Assembly: GCF_002354895.1 (NCBI RefSeq)
Contig: NZ_CP023439.1
Coordinates: 248,001 to 312,000 of the forward strand
From: Thauera sp. K11
GTDB lineage: Bacteria > Pseudomonadota > Gammaproteobacteria > Burkholderiales > Rhodocyclaceae
Direction: 5' to 3'
Length of the DNA stretch: 64,000 nucleotides
The position numbers and the translations under genes are program-made. Below the pieces are notes generated by a model that was not told the origin of the DNA, made no database searches, and saw only the letters and a list, made by a program, of their open reading frames with translations. Numbering within the stretch: the first letter of the stretch is position 1; every line of letters starts with the position of its first letter. Positions 34,912 to 55,175 of the stretch are shown here, piece after piece.

Positions 34912-35175
34912 ATGCGCAAGAGTCGTTTTTCAGAAGAGCAGATGGTGAAGATTCTGCGGGAGGCAGATCGCTTGCCGGTGGCGGAGGTGTCGAAGAAGCA
35001 CGGCGTGAGCGAGCAGACGATCTACACGTGGCGCAAGCGCTTTGGTGCGATGAACGCGGACGAGGTCAAACGGCTGCGGCAGTTGGAAGCGGAGAACGCG
35101 CGACTCAAGAAGATGGTGGCCGATCGGGACCTGGAGATCGACGTCATGAAGGAGATCGCGGCAAAAAAATGGTGA
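34912..35175 (+). CDS. IS3-family transposase OrfA
   Basis: An 87-residue DNA-binding subunit. It begins MRKSRFSEEQMVKILREAD and contains a helix-turn-helix (VAEVSKKHGVSEQTIYTWRKRFG) followed by a leucine-zipper-like coiled coil (LRQLEAENARLKKMVADRDLE) used for multimerisation. The frame ends just after the heptamer A AAA AAA at 35163-35169, where a -1 shift enters the orfB frame and yields the OrfAB transposase. OrfA alone acts as a regulator in this family. Confidence 0.95.
   Translation: MRKSRFSEEQMVKILREADRLPVAEVSKKHGVSEQTIYTWRKRFGAMNADEVKRLRQLEAENARLKKMVADRDLEIDVMKEIAAKKW
35163..35169 (+). promoter_or_regulatory. Programmed -1 frameshift heptamer of the IS
   Basis: Seven A residues read A AAA AAA in the orfA frame, the classic slippery sequence; after a -1 slip translation continues K-K-M-V-S-T-W in orfB. 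The shift occurs two codons before the orfA stop. Confidence 0.85.
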
Positions 35176-36020
35176 GCACCTGGGCACGCCGAGCGCAGGT
35201 GCATTATGCGGTCAGGCGAGGTATCTCGCAGCGCCGGGCGTGCGCGCTGATGTCGGTGTCGCGCTCGACGCTGGGCTACGCGTCGTGCCTGGACGAACGC
35301 GATCGTCCGCTGATCGGCCAGTTGCGACGCTTGGCGGCCCAGTACCCACGCTACGGCTATCGGCGCATTCGCATCTTTCTGCGCCGGGCCGGATACCACT
35401 TGAGCACCGGCCGCACCTGGCGGCTGTGGCGCAAGGCCGGCCTGCAGGTGCCGCGCAAGCGTCCCCGGCGTCGGGTTGCCAGTCAGCGCGATCAGGTACA
35501 GCGAGCTTCACGGATGAACGGGATCTGGGCCTACGACTTCGTCTTCGACACCTGCGCCAACGGACAGCCCATCAAGTGCCTGACGGTGATCGATGAGCAC
35601 ACGCGCGAGGCACTGGCGATCGATGTGGCCGGCAGCATCCGCTCCGAGCGCGTCATCGAAGTGTTGAGCCGCTTGATCAGCGAGCGCGGTGCGCCCAAGG
35701 CACTGCGTTCGGACAACGGTCCGGAGTTTGTCTCGGCCCGGCTACTTCAGTGGGCGAGCGATCAGGGATTGCAGATGGCGTTGTCGCAGCCGGGCAAACC
35801 CTGGCAGAACGGCACCGACGAGAGTTTCAACGGCAAGCTACGGGATGAATGCCTGTCCATGGAGTATTTTCGTAACCGCCTTGAAGCACGCGTGCTGATC
35901 GAGCAGTGGCGCCGCCATTACAATGAAGTTCGACCGCATTCGGCGCTGGGCTACCTGACCCCGGCGCAGTTCGTTCAGAATCAGTCAGGCAACCACCACC
36001 AAGCCATCCCTCTCACGTAA
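35169..36020 (+). CDS. IS3-family transposase OrfB (DDE integrase core)
   Basis: The 283-residue catalytic half of the transposase. An N-terminal HTH_21 segment (YPRYGYRRIRIFLRRAGY) precedes the rve integrase core. The DDE residues are recognisable: Asp in IWAYDFVFD, Asp in ALRSDNGPEF, and Glu in DESFNGKLRDECL. The end HYNEVRPHSALGYLTPAQF is typical. It can be started at the ATG at 35169 that overlaps the heptamer, but is mainly made as an OrfAB fusion by frameshifting. Confidence 0.95.
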   Translation: MVSTWARRAQVHYAVRRGISQRRACALMSVSRSTLGYASCLDERDRPLIGQLRRLAAQYPRYGYRRIRIFLRRAGYHLSTGRTWRLWRKAGLQVPRKRPRRRVASQRDQVQRASRMNGIWAYDFVFDTCANGQPIKCLTVIDEHTREALAIDVAGSIRSERVIEVLSRLISERGAPKALRSDNGPEFVSARLLQWASDQGLQMALSQPGKPWQNGTDESFNGKLRDECLSMEYFRNRLEARVLIEQWRRHYNEVRPHSALGYLTPAQFVQNQSGNHHQAIPLT

Positions 36021-36136: not shown

Positions 36137-36892
36137 TCAAACTTCTCGCAAATTCTCCAACCACTTAGCTGCCAATCGGCGAACAAAGCTCTCCGCCTCA
36201 GCTTTCGACATTGGCTTGGCACTTTTCGGGGTATCGTCATATGCGTGGCGCGCCCAGTCACCTGAGACAGCCGAATTGTGAACTGCGTCCCCGAATCTTT
36301 GAAACTCGTCGGCTGAGATGCCGAACTGTGTGTGAAAGGCTTTCCTGTTCTTAGGGTGCCCCTCAGCGAGTTCATATATTTTATACAACGTAGAACCAGT
36401 CTGGTTTTTCTTTGAGAGAAGATCAAGTACCTTCGCAGCGTTTTCGTTACGAAAAGCAGGTTCAAGCCTCGCTCTCTGACGCTCAAGTGCCGTCTGATAC
36501 TCTTTCTCCGCCTGCTGCTCCCACCAAACTGCGAGTGCGTGCTCACTTAGTTCACATGGAGGCCCAATCGTCATAGTAGAAGTTCCTCCCTGTATTCGTA
36601 TCACTCCCGATTGAGCCTCGAGAAAAGCGTGGCGCCTCGGTGGATAGCATGAAAACTCCAAGACGGCGCCCAACTGAAACGTCGAATCGATATCCGCGGG
36701 TCCTTGCATAGCGGTTCTAATTTCCTTCGCGAGTTCGAACGCGTCAGCGGCAGTCGAGCACATTTCCATTTTCTCTGAGGTGATTGCCGGATAATCGGTC
36801 GTCTCGATGACGTCGAATCCAAGGCCGCCCAGTAAGTCCTTCAGATTTCTCAACTCAAGGCTTGTTCTTTGAATTTCCACCGCCCATCTCAT
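36137..36892 (-). CDS. Hypothetical protein, AT-richer accessory gene
   Basis: A 251-residue soluble protein with no family I recognise. The start has AGGA four bases upstream. No signal peptide or membrane helix is seen. Residues 125-150 are a charged helix (WWEQQAEKEYQTALERQRAR) and the C-terminal third is also helical. The beginning (MRWAVEIQRTSLELRNLKDLLGGLGF) suggests an alpha/beta start. Base composition is clearly lower in GC than the flanking genes, and the IS sits only 90 bases beyond its 3' end, so horizontal origin is likely. Confidence 0.65.
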   Translation of the reverse strand: MRWAVEIQRTSLELRNLKDLLGGLGFDVIETTDYPAITSEKMEMCSTAADAFELAKEIRTAMQGPADIDSTFQLGAVLEFSCYPPRRHAFLEAQSGVIRIQGGTSTMTIGPPCELSEHALAVWWEQQAEKEYQTALERQRARLEPAFRNENAAKVLDLLSKKNQTGSTLYKIYELAEGHPKNRKAFHTQFGISADEFQRFGDAVHNSAVSGDWARHAYDDTPKSAKPMSKAEAESFVRRLAAKWLENLREV

Positions 36893-37574: not shown

Positions 37575-37727
37575 CGGTGCGCTCGGGGTCGAAACCCGCA
37601 ATGGTAGCGTCCCCGCAAGCGGGGAGGCCACGGCGGCGGCCGGGCAGGGCGGGTGCGACTTCGCGCCGCATGTGCGCGGCATGGCCTGCTTGCTAAATTG
37701 GCGCTCCCCAAGTGGAACCGAGGAGCC

Positions 37728-38714
37728 ATGGTGCCCGACGACTCGAACCCGAAGCGCCTCGCGCGCCTGTCCCTGCTGTGCGTCGCGGGCGCGGTTTCGC
37801 CCGCCGCGGTCGCGTCCTGCGGGCAGGCGTTTTGCTCCATCAACACCAACTGGCATGCGCAGGGGGTATGGACGGAGCCGGGCATGCGGCTGGACCTGCA
37901 GTACCAGTTCATCGACCAGGACCAGCCGCGCGCCGGCACGCGCGACGTGTCCGCCGGGGAGGTGAGCCGCCACCACGACGAGATCCGCACGATCAACCGC
38001 AACTGGCTGGGCACCCTGGACTACGCCATCGACCCGCGCTGGGGTGTGTCGTTCACGCTGCCGCTCACAAACCGCAGCCACTCGCACGTCCACAATCATC
38101 ACGAGCACGGCGGCGGCGTGTCGCACGAGACGCAGGCGTGGAACTTCACCCGCATCGGCGACCTGCGCGTGGTCGGCCGCTACCAGTTCATGGGCGACGG
38201 CACGTCGCCGAGTGCGGGCATCAACTTCGGCCTGAAGCTGCCCACCGGCAGCCGCAAGGTCGAGAACGGCGACGGCGAGCGCGCGGAGCGGAGCCTGCAG
38301 CCCGGCACCGGTACGACGGATGCCATCGTCGGCGCGTGGTATCGGCTGCCCCTCGACGAAGGCGATTCGGCCCTGTTCGCGCAGGCGCTGGCGCAGGTGG
38401 CCATGGGAGAGAGCGACGGCTTTTGCCCCGGCAACCAGTACAGCCTGGATGTCGGCTGGCAGCGGCAGTTGGCGCCCCGCTGGGCGGCCTTCGTGCAGGC
38501 GAACTTCCAGTGGCGCGGCCGCGACCGCGGCAGCGAGGCCGAGCCGGAGGACAGCGGCTCGCGCAAGCTGTTCCTCGGCCCTGGCCTCGGTTACGCGATC
38601 GCGCGCGATTTCCAGGTCTATGCCTTCGTCCAGTTGCCGGTCCATCAGCATGTGAACGGCGTGCAGCTCACGGCGGACTGGGCGGCGCTGCTGGGCCTCA
38701 GCAAGTCCTTCTAG
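37728..38714 (+). CDS. Predicted outer-membrane beta-barrel protein with a His-rich loop
   Basis: A 328-residue exported protein. A signal peptide covers about residues 8-30 (ARLSLLCVAGAVSPAAVA, cleavage near ASC). The mature part begins with a Cys pair CGQAFC and then alternates amphipathic strands (LDLQYQFID, WGVSFTLPLTNR, RVVGRYQFMG, YSLDVGWQRQL, AAFVQANFQW), ending in KSF with a terminal Phe as barrel proteins do. Residues around 113-125 contain SHSHVHNHHEHGGG, a likely metal-binding loop. The function is unknown; a metal or cytochrome-related porin is possible. AGGAG lies just before the ATG. Confidence 0.7.
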   Translation: MVPDDSNPKRLARLSLLCVAGAVSPAAVASCGQAFCSINTNWHAQGVWTEPGMRLDLQYQFIDQDQPRAGTRDVSAGEVSRHHDEIRTINRNWLGTLDYAIDPRWGVSFTLPLTNRSHSHVHNHHEHGGGVSHETQAWNFTRIGDLRVVGRYQFMGDGTSPSAGINFGLKLPTGSRKVENGDGERAERSLQPGTGTTDAIVGAWYRLPLDEGDSALFAQALAQVAMGESDGFCPGNQYSLDVGWQRQLAPRWAAFVQANFQWRGRDRGSEAEPEDSGSRKLFLGPGLGYAIARDFQVYAFVQLPVHQHVNGVQLTADWAALLGLSKSF

Positions 38715-38918
38715 CTCCGCGCGGCCGTCGCGGCGCCGTCCGTGGCGGGTTCCCCGCCCGGGGAGCCGCGGAGCCGGTCCGGCCGTTGGCTTCCGCCGCC
38801 GGCCCCGGCGGGGCGTCCGCGGCCTGCGCCGCCGGCGTTTCTCCGGCGGGCAATTCCGTGCAGCGGCACATAGAATGCAGTGTATGCGGGCACCATGCGC
38901 GCGGGCGGGGCCGGATCG

Positions 38919-40697
38919 ATGACGCGGATCTTCATCAGCTATCGCCGTGACGATGCCGGCGGCAGCACCTGGCGGTTGTTCGACTGGTGCGAGCGGCAGT
39001 TCGGGGCCGGACGGGTCTTCTTCGACCGCGAGTCCATCCCGCCCGGCGCGCCTTTCCCGCGGCTGCTGGAGGAGGGGCTTGCGGCCTGCGACGTGCTCGT
39101 GGTGGTGATCGGCCCGCGCTGGGCGAGCATCGCCGATGCGGCGGGGCGGCCGCGGCTATGGACGCCGGGCGACTTCGTTGCGCACGAGGTGGCGACCGGG
39201 TTGGCGCTGGGCAAGCGGGTGATTCCGGTGCTGGTCGAGGGCGCCGCCATGCCCGCGCCCGGCGCCTTGCCGCCCGCGCTGCGCGCGCTGGCCGACTGCG
39301 AGGCGCTGGCGCTGGACGCCGCTCATTTCCGCGAGGATTTCGAACGCCTGGTCGATGCCGTGCTCGGCCGCCCCCGCGGCTTCGCACGGCGACGGGTGGA
39401 CGACGTGCAGCGGCTGCTGCGCTTCGCGATGCGCGGCGCCGTCGTGGTGCCGCTGGTCGTGCTGCTCGCCTTTTTCGCCGCCTGGGTGGGGCTGTTCGGC
39501 CTGCTCGGGCTGGACACCCGCATCGCCAGCTACAGCATGGTGCTCGCGGGCGAACGGATCGCGGGCGGGGGCGGCGACCGGGTGCTCGTCGTTGCGCTCG
39601 ACGATGACAGCGAGCGGCGCCTGGGGCGCGCCTATGACGGTTCGCCGGCGTGGCGCGAGCTGCATGCGCGGCTCATCGACCGCCTGTCGCAGGCGGGGGC
39701 GGCGGTCATCGTGCTGGATTTCTTCCTCGAGCGCGAGAGCCCCGCCGACGGCATGCTCGCCGCTGCGCTGGTCCGTGCACGCGAACGCGGCAGCCGCGTC
39801 GTGCTCGCCGTCCGGCAGATCGACGACGGCAGGCCGCGGCTCGCGCCGGCGCTGCTGGCCGTCGGGGCGGAGTGGGGTGTGGCCTGCCTGGGCGAGCAGG
39901 AAGGCTACCTGTTCTCCATGCCTCTTGCCCGCGCAGCGGACAGGCAGCGCGCGGCCGATCCTTTCCGCATGCTGGACGCCGAACCGGCCGCGGCGCCGGC
40001 CCTGGCGCTCGTCGCGGCGTTCGGCGGCGAACCCGACCTCATCCGGCGCGGGCCGCGCGAGATCACGCTGCGCGGCGCCGGCCCCGGGGTGGCGCCGGTC
40101 GGCTTTTCCATGCTCAAGCGGCAGGCCCGCTCGCGCTGCCCGGCGCTGGCGGACGACGACGTCGTCGCCTCGCGCCTGCTGCCGCTGTCGCCGCTGGCGG
40201 ACTGGCGTGCGCCGGCCCGGCGCCATGCCTACGCGCAGTGGCTGGAGGCCGGGCCGCCTGCCGCGGATCTGCGCGGCAGGCTGGTTATCGTCGGCCTCGC
40301 GACCTCGTCCGCGCCCGACGAGCACACGGTGCGCCGCGGCCTGCGTACCGAAGACCGCTTCGGCGTCGAACTGCAGGCCGACGCGATGCGCAACCTGCTG
40401 GGCGGGACCGTGCTGCGGCCGCCGGGCTGGCCGGCCCAGCTTGCCGCCATGTTCGCGCTGGCCGCGGCGGGCGGGTTGGCGGCCTTCTTCCTCGCCGCCC
40501 GCCCGCGTGTGGTCGGACTGGTCGCGCTGGCGGCCGCGGCGCTCGCCTACCTCGGCGTGAGCGCGGCGCTGCTCGCGTTCGCCGGCGTGCTGCTCAATCC
40601 GCTCTACGATCTCGGCGCATTCCTGGCCGCCTGCTGGCTGCTCGGCCGGCTCGAGCGCAAGGCGGCCGGCATTCCCGTTCCCGGAGGTGGCCAATGA
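38919..40697 (+). CDS. TIR domain-CHASE2 domain membrane protein
   Basis: A 592-residue protein. Residues 1-150 are a TIR domain (TRIFISYRRDD start, FFDRESIPPG box, and Glu90 in GDFVAHEVATG where the NADase glutamate lies). A membrane helix at about 175-205 follows. Residues 205-480 are a CHASE2 periplasmic sensor (VLVVALDDDSERRLG, AGAAVIVLDFFLE, LVIVGLATSSAPDEH). Three C-terminal helices complete the usual CHASE2 layout. CHASE2 normally feeds cyclases or kinases; a TIR at the cytoplasmic end is unusual. The stop overlaps the FecR lipoprotein gene. An ATG at 38895 is an alternative start. Confidence 0.85.
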   Translation: MTRIFISYRRDDAGGSTWRLFDWCERQFGAGRVFFDRESIPPGAPFPRLLEEGLAACDVLVVVIGPRWASIADAAGRPRLWTPGDFVAHEVATGLALGKRVIPVLVEGAAMPAPGALPPALRALADCEALALDAAHFREDFERLVDAVLGRPRGFARRRVDDVQRLLRFAMRGAVVVPLVVLLAFFAAWVGLFGLLGLDTRIASYSMVLAGERIAGGGGDRVLVVALDDDSERRLGRAYDGSPAWRELHARLIDRLSQAGAAVIVLDFFLERESPADGMLAAALVRARERGSRVVLAVRQIDDGRPRLAPALLAVGAEWGVACLGEQEGYLFSMPLARAADRQRAADPFRMLDAEPAAAPALALVAAFGGEPDLIRRGPREITLRGAGPGVAPVGFSMLKRQARSRCPALADDDVVASRLLPLSPLADWRAPARRHAYAQWLEAGPPAADLRGRLVIVGLATSSAPDEHTVRRGLRTEDRFGVELQADAMRNLLGGTVLRPPGWPAQLAAMFALAAAGGLAAFFLAARPRVVGLVALAAAALAYLGVSAALLAFAGVLLNPLYDLGAFLAACWLLGRLERKAAGIPVPGGGQ

Positions 40698-41665
40698 AAG
40701 TACATCGCCCATCGTCCATCGGCGCCGCCGCACGCGCCTTCGCCGTGCTGCTCGCCTGCCTGGTGCTGGCGGGGTGCGCCCCGCTGCTGGTCGACGTGAT
40801 GCGCGAGGACCCGCAGCGGCCGGGCCGCTACCTGCCGTACGGCGGGGCGGAGTGGGCCGGCGCGGTTCAGGTGTCGCGCGGCGGTCGGCCGCTGGCGGCG
40901 CGCCTGCCGGCTGCGCTGCAGCCGGGCGACGTGGTGCAGACCGGGGCGGACGCCTTCGCGGTGATCCGCTATCCGGACGGCGGCGAGATCATGCTCGACC
41001 GCAACACCCGCGTGCGCACCGGCTCCCTGTTCGTCGAATTCGGCCGCATCCTCGCGCGCGTGCGCGGGCTGTTCGAAGTCGAGACCGAGAACGTGGTGAC
41101 CGGCGTCGAGGGCACCGAGTACGTGCTGCAGGTGGCGCGCGGCGGTGCGTTGAAGATCGTCGTGCTGGACGGCGTTGTCGTGTGCCGTTCGCGGACCGGG
41201 CGCTGGAGCCCGGTCCGGCTGCAGCGCGGCGAGATGCTGGTGTCGGACTATCCCGACCGCACCGCGCCCCGCGTGCAGCGCGCTCCGCTCAAGGACTGGG
41301 AGGAAGCGAGCCGCTGGAGCAGCGGGCTCGGCGTTCGCCAGCCGGAGCCGGTGCGTACCGGCTACTGCTGCGAGAGCGGCCGGCTGCGCCGCGGCAGGCA
41401 GGAGGATTGCCGCGGATTCTTTTCCACGTCCGAGCGCGAGGCTGCCGCACGCTGCGAGCGTGCGCGGCCGGACGAGGCGCAGACGGGCTATTGCTGCAGC
41501 GGCGGCCGGGTGGACACGACCACCCGGGCGCGCTGCGAGGCGGGCAAGGGGAGCTTCCACGCCGATGCGGCGGAGGCCCGGCGTGCCTGCCGCGTCGCGT
41601 CTCCGGTGGATACGCCGCGCCTCATCGAGCGGGTGCGGCCGCTGCAACTGCCGCCGCCGGAATAA
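40694..41665 (+). CDS. FecR-domain lipoprotein with Cys-rich repeats
   Basis: A 323-residue lipoprotein: basic start, hydrophobic stretch and lipobox LAGC at residue ~28. A FecR domain spans about 45-180 (GAVQVSRGGRPLAARLPAALQPGD, VIRYPDGGEIMLDRNT, FEVETENVVTGVEGTEYVL). Two tandem modules follow, each starting TGYCC and ending in a Cys-containing helix (GRLRRGRQEDCRG and GRVDTTTRARCEAG). ATGA overlap couples it to the TIR-CHASE2 gene, and FecR proteins often accompany CHASE2 partners. It probably sits in the periplasm as ligand or partner of the CHASE2 sensor; that is inference. Confidence 0.85.
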   Translation: MKVHRPSSIGAAARAFAVLLACLVLAGCAPLLVDVMREDPQRPGRYLPYGGAEWAGAVQVSRGGRPLAARLPAALQPGDVVQTGADAFAVIRYPDGGEIMLDRNTRVRTGSLFVEFGRILARVRGLFEVETENVVTGVEGTEYVLQVARGGALKIVVLDGVVVCRSRTGRWSPVRLQRGEMLVSDYPDRTAPRVQRAPLKDWEEASRWSSGLGVRQPEPVRTGYCCESGRLRRGRQEDCRGFFSTSEREAAARCERARPDEAQTGYCCSGGRVDTTTRARCEAGKGSFHADAAEARRACRVASPVDTPRLIERVRPLQLPPPE

Positions 41666-52140: not shown

Positions 52141-53970
<1,830 letters not shown>

Positions 53971-54044
53971 TGGCGGCAATTCTAGCGGGTTCGGTGCCGT
54001 TATCGGGCGGCATTGTCACGATGGCCGTTGCCGATATCGTCTTG

Positions 54045-55175
54045 TCAATGCCGGACGGCGTGTAGCAAGGCAACCAGTTCGGGTTGCCGGGTCGTTCGGG
54101 TCTTCTGGAATACTACTTGGAGCTGGGTCTTCACCGTGTTCACCGAAACGCCGATGCGCAAGGCGACCTCCGCCAGCGTGCCACCGCCGAGCAAGGCGCG
54201 GGCGAGCCGTGCCTCGGCGGCAGTGAAACTGAAGCCTTGCTGCAAGACCTCCTCGCTTGGCGGCCTGAGCGGGTCGGACACTTTGATTAGCACACCCACC
54301 TGTTCGAACCAGGGCTGCGCACCCATCTGCATCAGGGGGGTCACTGTGACCAGCAGCGGCGGCGCGCCGGCGCGATCGACGGTTACTACTGGCGAGTTGC
54401 GGCTGTCGTGGCGGGTATTGCCCTTGGCGAGTTCGAGCGCATCGGCGATCGAACGTCCGAGCCGGGCCTGCGCATCGTCGGATTTGCAGCGCAATTTGTG
54501 GCCATGGTCAGCGACGAAGATGTCTCCGTTCGCCAGTAGCCGCTCGAAAGCGGGATTCGCCTCGCTGATGCAGCCGTTGCTGGTGAGTGCGGCCACCGGC
54601 TCGTCGCTTTCGTCTATGCCGCGGCTGCCGAACGCCAGTGCACGGGCGAAGCCGGCGAGCCGCCGCGAGATGCGGACCGCCCGATCCACGTGCGGTAGCA
54701 GCAGTTCCAGCGTCGCACGCTGCTCCGCGCTGAAGCGGTCGCTCACGCCGATCTTCAGCAGCACGACGTGACCGTGGCGTGCCCCTTCGACCGCAGCTTT
54801 CGCCATCAGGCATTCCTTGAGACCCGAGGGCACGAGATAGTCACGGTAAACCGGATTATCGGTGCGTGTGGCCTCGGAGAGTGCTTCCACGTCCGACAAC
54901 CAGCGTAATTCGGGCGCCTTCATCATCACCGGCAGCCGCGGGTCGATCTGCGCATAGCGCTTCAGATACACGTGGTGCGCTTCCTCGTCCACGTTGTACA
55001 GCACATGGCGCCAAAGTACCGATAGCGCGTAGTCCATATCGATGAAGACCGCCGCCTGTGCCTCGCCCAGGTGCGCCATCCCCTGGAGGGCGGCATACCA
55101 GCGCTTCGGGTGGAGCGTGGCTTCGTAGAGTGCTGAGATCACGGGGTCGAGCCTGCAGAAATCGGGGGTGTTCAT
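54045..55175 (-). CDS. LuxR-type helix-turn-helix transcriptional regulator
   Basis: A 376-residue protein with a LuxR HTH at the C-terminus (FSFTAAEARLARALLGGGTLAEVALRIGVSVNTVKTQLQVVFQKT). The N-terminal 300 residues show a PAS/GAF-like sensor region (AALTSNGCISEANPAFERLLANGDIF) and no autoinducer-binding signature or phosphoacceptor pattern. GGAGAC precedes the start by eight bases. It is divergent from the membrane/patatin operon, with a 16-bp palindrome in the 160-base gap, so it is the probable regulator of that operon and of itself. Confidence 0.86.
   Translation of the reverse strand: MNTPDFCRLDPVISALYEATLHPKRWYAALQGMAHLGEAQAAVFIDMDYALSVLWRHVLYNVDEEAHHVYLKRYAQIDPRLPVMMKAPELRWLSDVEALSEATRTDNPVYRDYLVPSGLKECLMAKAAVEGARHGHVVLLKIGVSDRFSAEQRATLELLLPHVDRAVRISRRLAGFARALAFGSRGIDESDEPVAALTSNGCISEANPAFERLLANGDIFVADHGHKLRCKSDDAQARLGRSIADALELAKGNTRHDSRNSPVVTVDRAGAPPLLVTVTPLMQMGAQPWFEQVGVLIKVSDPLRPPSEEVLQQGFSFTAAEARLARALLGGGTLAEVALRIGVSVNTVKTQLQVVFQKTRTTRQPELVALLHAVRH

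Follow-up and report, generated by a model that had tools for sequence, protein, structure and literature searches.

What would a bacterial transmembrane sensor do with a TIR domain as its output? The question is raised by two genes in a stretch of 64,000 nucleotides from Thauera sp. K11 (assembly GCF_002354895.1, contig NZ_CP023439.1, positions 248,001 to 312,000 of the forward strand; hereafter the window, whose own numbering and + strand we use throughout). The first (38919..40697; ATG start, 592 amino acids, with full-length relatives elsewhere) encodes a TIR-CHASE2 protein, and the second (40694..41665; ATG start, 323 amino acids) encodes a FecR-domain lipoprotein. The reading we favor, with confidence and doubt about evenly matched, is a two-part trans-envelope receptor in which the FecR protein senses, CHASE2 relays, and TIR cleaves nicotinamide adenine dinucleotide (NAD+) through Glu90.

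A coupled gene pair with TIR, CHASE2, and FecR domains

Both open reading frames (ORFs) exist and are coupled through an ATGA stop/start overlap at 40694..40697, as an earlier reading made from the letters of the window (the sequence-only reading) had proposed. The same overlap is kept in Thauera sp. 2A1 (L076:4547-4550), which at 81% identity is the closest named relative among the matches listed. The three domains called by eye in that reading all exceed their Pfam cut-offs in a profile search. TIR_2 covers residues 4-144 (38928..39350; 41.9 bits, cut-off 28) and is predicted to be cytoplasmic. Its Glu90 (codon 39186..39188), put forward earlier as a putative catalytic residue, is indeed a Glu and aligns with SARM1 Glu642 (number counted along the printed alignment). 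Together with its adjoining signature residues it is unchanged in 14/14 aligned proteins. NAD+ hydrolases lead the fold matches, in a structure match list filled by TIR that barely covers the CHASE2 part, and the protein combines a TIR fold with a putative catalytic-type Glu.

These residues and fold matches bear on a different role for the domain, that of a non-catalytic, signal-driven scaffold recruiting another TIR or effector, like animal Toll receptors. Possible partners exist among the nine TIR_2 matches of the genome, this protein included, and TIRs often self-associate (PMC7075850; this and the other papers cited are represented here by excerpts). Given the invariant Glu90 signature and the hydrolase-like fold, however, we regard a scaffold as improbable. 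Another TIR protein of the same genome, L041, gives a weak N-terminal match to SLOG that stays under the threshold.

CHASE2 (PF05226) spans residues 185-519 (39471..40475; 78.9 bits, cut-off 26.3) and is predicted to be periplasmic. Model helices and hydropathy place one transmembrane (TM) helix 5′ and three 3′ of it, the typical CHASE2 layout: TM1 (residues 176-196, 39444..39506) has a mean Kyte-Doolittle value of 2.6 and a positive flank facing TIR, and TM2-TM4 are helices 504-525, 530-555, and 561-583 (40428..40667). The model thus agrees with the arrangement expected earlier, TIR inside and CHASE2 outside. CHASE2 proteins usually carry their output domain at the C terminus, a common but not a defining trait; here the protein stops 9 residues past TM4 and the output domain is N-terminal.

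By eye, the second protein begins with a signal-peptide-like stretch and a lipobox, LVLAGC (40760..40777), whose Cys28 column is unchanged in 16/16. The FecR domain follows at residues 79-162 (40928..41179; 42.3 bits, cut-off 24). Among 10 relatives' partners scanned with Pfam, eight exceed the FecR cut-off, L034 and L087 fall under it, and one has PASTA. After the FecR domain come two tandem Cys-rich repeats (GYCC..G...C.G.F...A...C; 41360..41593). Relatives have as many as four repeats of this kind (YCC/WCC...C...C), for which the sole Pfam match is a sub-threshold Galaxin_repeat; the structure match list for this protein is filled by the FecR domain and barely covers them. Although the FecR domain is common to this protein and FecR anti-sigma factors, the sigma factor and receptor neighbors are not: a Pfam scan found no extracytoplasmic function (ECF) sigma factor or TonB-dependent receptor, as in a FecI/FecR/FecA context, among six nearby genes (a transposase, an unknown, a tRNA-editing protein, a barrel protein, an AraC regulator, and a binding protein).

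A TAGAATGCA box lies at 38871-38879, ~40 bases 5′ of the TIR start, and also precedes the Thauera sp. 2A1 gene. It is possibly a -10 element; the output of a consensus scan did not include it.

FecR pairing, and how the proposed receptor might work

Does the FecR partner belong to TIR-CHASE2, or to this window? Among 20 distinct TIR-CHASE2 loci (the window, L034, L035, L073, L074, L075, L076-L088, and L214, with the duplicates L033 = L081 and L036 = L085 counted once), FecR adjoins on the same strand in 18, the window included. It lies downstream in 10 (the window, L034, L035, L073, L075, L076, L079, L085, L087, and L088) and upstream in eight (L077, L078, L080-L084, and L086). Of the remaining two, L074 ends 42 bases past the TIR-CHASE2 gene and shows no FecR match in 2.1 kb on the other side; L214 is taken up below. 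By comparison, a FecR-profile match occurs in 3/67 TIR-only loci (L113, L120, and L147), a control with unequal locus lengths and a narrower FecR profile than the one used for the other CHASE2 loci described below. Because the neighbor counts differ so (18/20 vs. 3/67), the pairing goes beyond chance, and the co-occurrence survey suggested by the sequence-only reading comes out in its favor. Near the TIR match of L113, CHASE2- and FecR-profile pieces lie in short overlapping ORFs (L113:2206-2993) that may be a disrupted version of the pair.

This near-constant partner is consistent with an envelope-sensing switch. We infer the following course of events. The FecR lipoprotein, predicted to be exported and lipidated and probably in the outer membrane, would sense the condition of the peptidoglycan or outer membrane and make contact with the periplasmic CHASE2 of its partner. 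CHASE2 would relay the change across the four TM helices to the cytoplasmic N-terminal TIR, whose self-association may turn on a SARM1-like NAD+-cleaving site with Glu90. Cells could then lose NAD+ and stop growing or die, or an ADP-ribose-type signal could be made.

Several observations weigh against this two-part receptor. TM4 is weakly hydrophobic (0.8 in the window protein, means 0.4 to 1.5). Where SARM1 has Trp638, residue 86 is Phe in 11 proteins, Tyr in two, and Pro in one. Some CHASE2-FecR pairs have a peptidoglycan-binding module on the FecR partner, a trait that is perhaps not defining; in the window FecR protein neither LysM nor PASTA is matched, and FecR alone exceeds its Pfam cut-off. 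Its outer-membrane placement is presumed from the +2 rule (Ala29, not Asp). Finally, in L214 the FecR gene is convergent with the TIR-CHASE2 gene, on the other strand with 37 bases between them, and so the two genes do not form one operon there. The FecR-domain protein convergent with the L214 TIR-CHASE2 gene (L214:6278-8134, - strand) has five PASTA repeats.

An accessory cassette, and the question of defense

Full-length TIR-CHASE2 is patchily distributed. Counting the window's own genome, it is present in 3/29 genomes of the genus (all candidates scored), in at least 5/199 genomes of a family draw, at least 4/399 of an order draw, and at least 1/398 of a phylum draw; scoring was limited to six candidates per genome in the family draw and to three in the order and phylum draws, making these low estimates. 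Among the matches listed, at least 13 named contigs carry it: seven from Accumulibacter, two from Burkholderiales metagenome-assembled genomes, and one each from Thauera, Azonexus, Aromatoleum diolicum, and a gammaproteobacterial metagenome-assembled genome. The CHASE2 parts of the TIR proteins form one group (100/100) in two midpoint-rooted trees whose outside rows come from the same family only: 19 vs. 38 other rows, the latter less than half filled, and 16 vs. 35, with a long-branch warning.

Thauera sp. 2A1 (L076) has gluDH, a barrel gene, TIR-CHASE2, FecR, a hydrolase, and recQ; L213 has this order without TIR-CHASE2 and FecR, and in L212 and L211 the barrel gene is followed directly by recQ, without either cassette gene or the hydrolase. 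Because these three loci persist without both genes, TIR-CHASE2 and FecR came or went together: the cassette is accessory, and its two genes were gained or lost as a unit. In the window recQ is more distant (52144-54531). The barrel gene shared with Thauera sp. 2A1 (37665-38711) was considered as a conserved partner and rejected, since it occurs in three genomes that lack the cassette; so was any conserved third gene, as neighbors vary between lineages. A near search for the pair found no match in plasmids, TIR-only matches occur in five plasmid records, and two viral contigs have partial TIR matches. Upstream in the window lie a transposase ORF with rve integrase domains (35028-36020) and, next after it, an ORF with no Pfam or PADLOC match (36137-36892).

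Is the cassette then a defense system? In an abortive infection scheme, FecR-CHASE2 would detect envelope damage or phage injection and TIR would deplete NAD+. The accessory nature of the cassette, with its 3/29 genomes and its absence from a conserved locus in three, speaks for this, as does the fact that several TIR NADases are defense proteins, e.g., SpbK and Thoeris in excerpts of published accounts. The surroundings argue otherwise. None of nine window neighbors matches PADLOC (0/9), and TIR-CHASE2 has no match in the phage collection. A PADLOC scan of 90 neighbors of 13 relatives gave 114 families matching at E 1e-5; the neighbors were chosen by a GC3 rule, which in five loci (L080-L083 and L087) dropped the FecR ORF, after manual exclusion of ORFs truncated at the ends of loci and of some that were short or antisense. 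The 25 families listed of the 114, with four members each, comprise 24 GajB models (UvrD-type helicase) and one RTasHel, and the one UvrD gene examined has an ordinary UvrD/PcrA make-up. Defense models match the TIR-CHASE2 protein itself below cut-off (39.7 bits for the Thoeris III model NF058526, vs. a curated cut-off of 220) or over its first 70 residues only (23.4 bits). We therefore consider abortive infection unlikely.

Of the 20 relatives' neighbors examined, most are genes for metabolism, transport, repair, or regulation. A staphylococcal-nuclease-like gene adjoins the pair in L079. On these counts the enrichment in defense islands expected from the sequence-only reading, and with it phage defense, is not borne out; its envelope switch stands in so far as the near-constant FecR and the predicted layout fit. 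Such ordinary neighborhoods would suit an envelope-stress regulator that makes a mild NAD-derived second messenger and does not kill the cell, as would the finding that in other CHASE2-FecR pairs the output is a cyclase or a kinase (PMC5192318, PMC9239204). Against such a regulator stand the patchy presence (3/29 in the genus, at least 5/199 in the family draw) and the lack of a recognized receptor for such a signal among the scanned neighbors; we think it somewhat less probable still than abortive infection.

Within the two-part receptor reading, we tentatively suggest, at well under even confidence, a layout like that of Toll-like receptors, in which FecR and CHASE2 watch the envelope and fire the TIR NADase upon damage by phage, competitor, or antibiotic, the genes being gained or lost between genomes as a unit. 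If true, damage to the envelope would lead to NAD+ loss or to an ADP-ribose-type signal. To our knowledge, where the trigger of a bacterial TIR enzyme is known, the enzyme is intracellular. A receptor that joins TIR to an extracytoplasmic sensor and a dedicated lipoprotein would show a route from the envelope to NAD+ metabolism.

CHASE2-FecR pairs and known systems

CHASE2-FecR sensor pairs extend beyond proteins with a TIR output. In a further 40 CHASE2 loci from the family, a non-random set drawn from near the top of a list ranked by E-value, the fetched stretch holds a FecR-profile match in 25 and none in 15. Among the 25, a script places 14 on the same strand and <200 bases away (its total of 15 counts the Thauera sp. 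K11 pair as well), and by the match table L193 and L194 share this arrangement; seven are on the other strand, and two lie at 600-700 bases. For example, a second pair in the Thauera sp. K11 genome (L037:5087-9672) sets CHASE2-PAS-GGDEF-EAL beside LysM-FecR. The statement in the sequence-only reading that CHASE2 is commonly tied to a cyclase or kinase is right, yet it omitted that CHASE2-FecR is itself an already known pairing (PMC5192318, PMC9239204). If the proposed receptor is real, CHASE2-FecR may be a sensing module of general use, joined to outputs of the kinase, cyclase, c-di-GMP, and TIR kinds. We found no description of a TIR-CHASE2 plus FecR pair in the titles, abstracts, and excerpts examined from the open-licence PMC literature, where absence from print is unproved and matches for CHASE2 with TIR name CHASE2 in caspase contexts.

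Among TIR enzymes, SARM1 and TIR-1 are cytosolic NAD+ hydrolases controlled by ARM and SAM domains and, unlike TIR-CHASE2, lack CHASE2. Thoeris (ThsA/ThsB) is alike in having a TIR enzyme as a possible signal maker, but none of the nine window neighbors tested with PADLOC is ThsA-like. A STALD (ThsA-like) protein elsewhere in the genome (C1:4479578, L215) was not assigned as the receptor for TIR-CHASE2, since an adjoining short ORF resembles, by eye, its own ThsB; the two, at ~4.48 Mb, are probably a separate Thoeris system.

Among CHASE2 systems, the BiofilmReg operon of Burkholderia and others likewise has a CHASE2 membrane sensor next to an exported FecR protein, but its output is a histidine kinase with a response regulator, and its FecR has LysM, whereas the window protein carries a lipobox together with Cys-rich repeats (PMC5192318). 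In Campylobacterota, CHASE2 adenylate cyclase clusters similarly include a FecR-domain outer-membrane protein, the differences being the cyclase output and the presence of phosphodiesterase and TPR genes as further cluster members (PMC9239204). Sinorhizobium CHASE2 cyclases answer a signal sensed via the outer-membrane barrel NsrA (PMC13001267). A metacaspase-CHASE2 protein of Trichodesmium, a single sequence whose excerpted description does not mention a FecR partner, has a metacaspase in place of TIR but shares the order found here: an N-terminal effector enzyme, one TM, CHASE2, and three TMs (PMC3501461).
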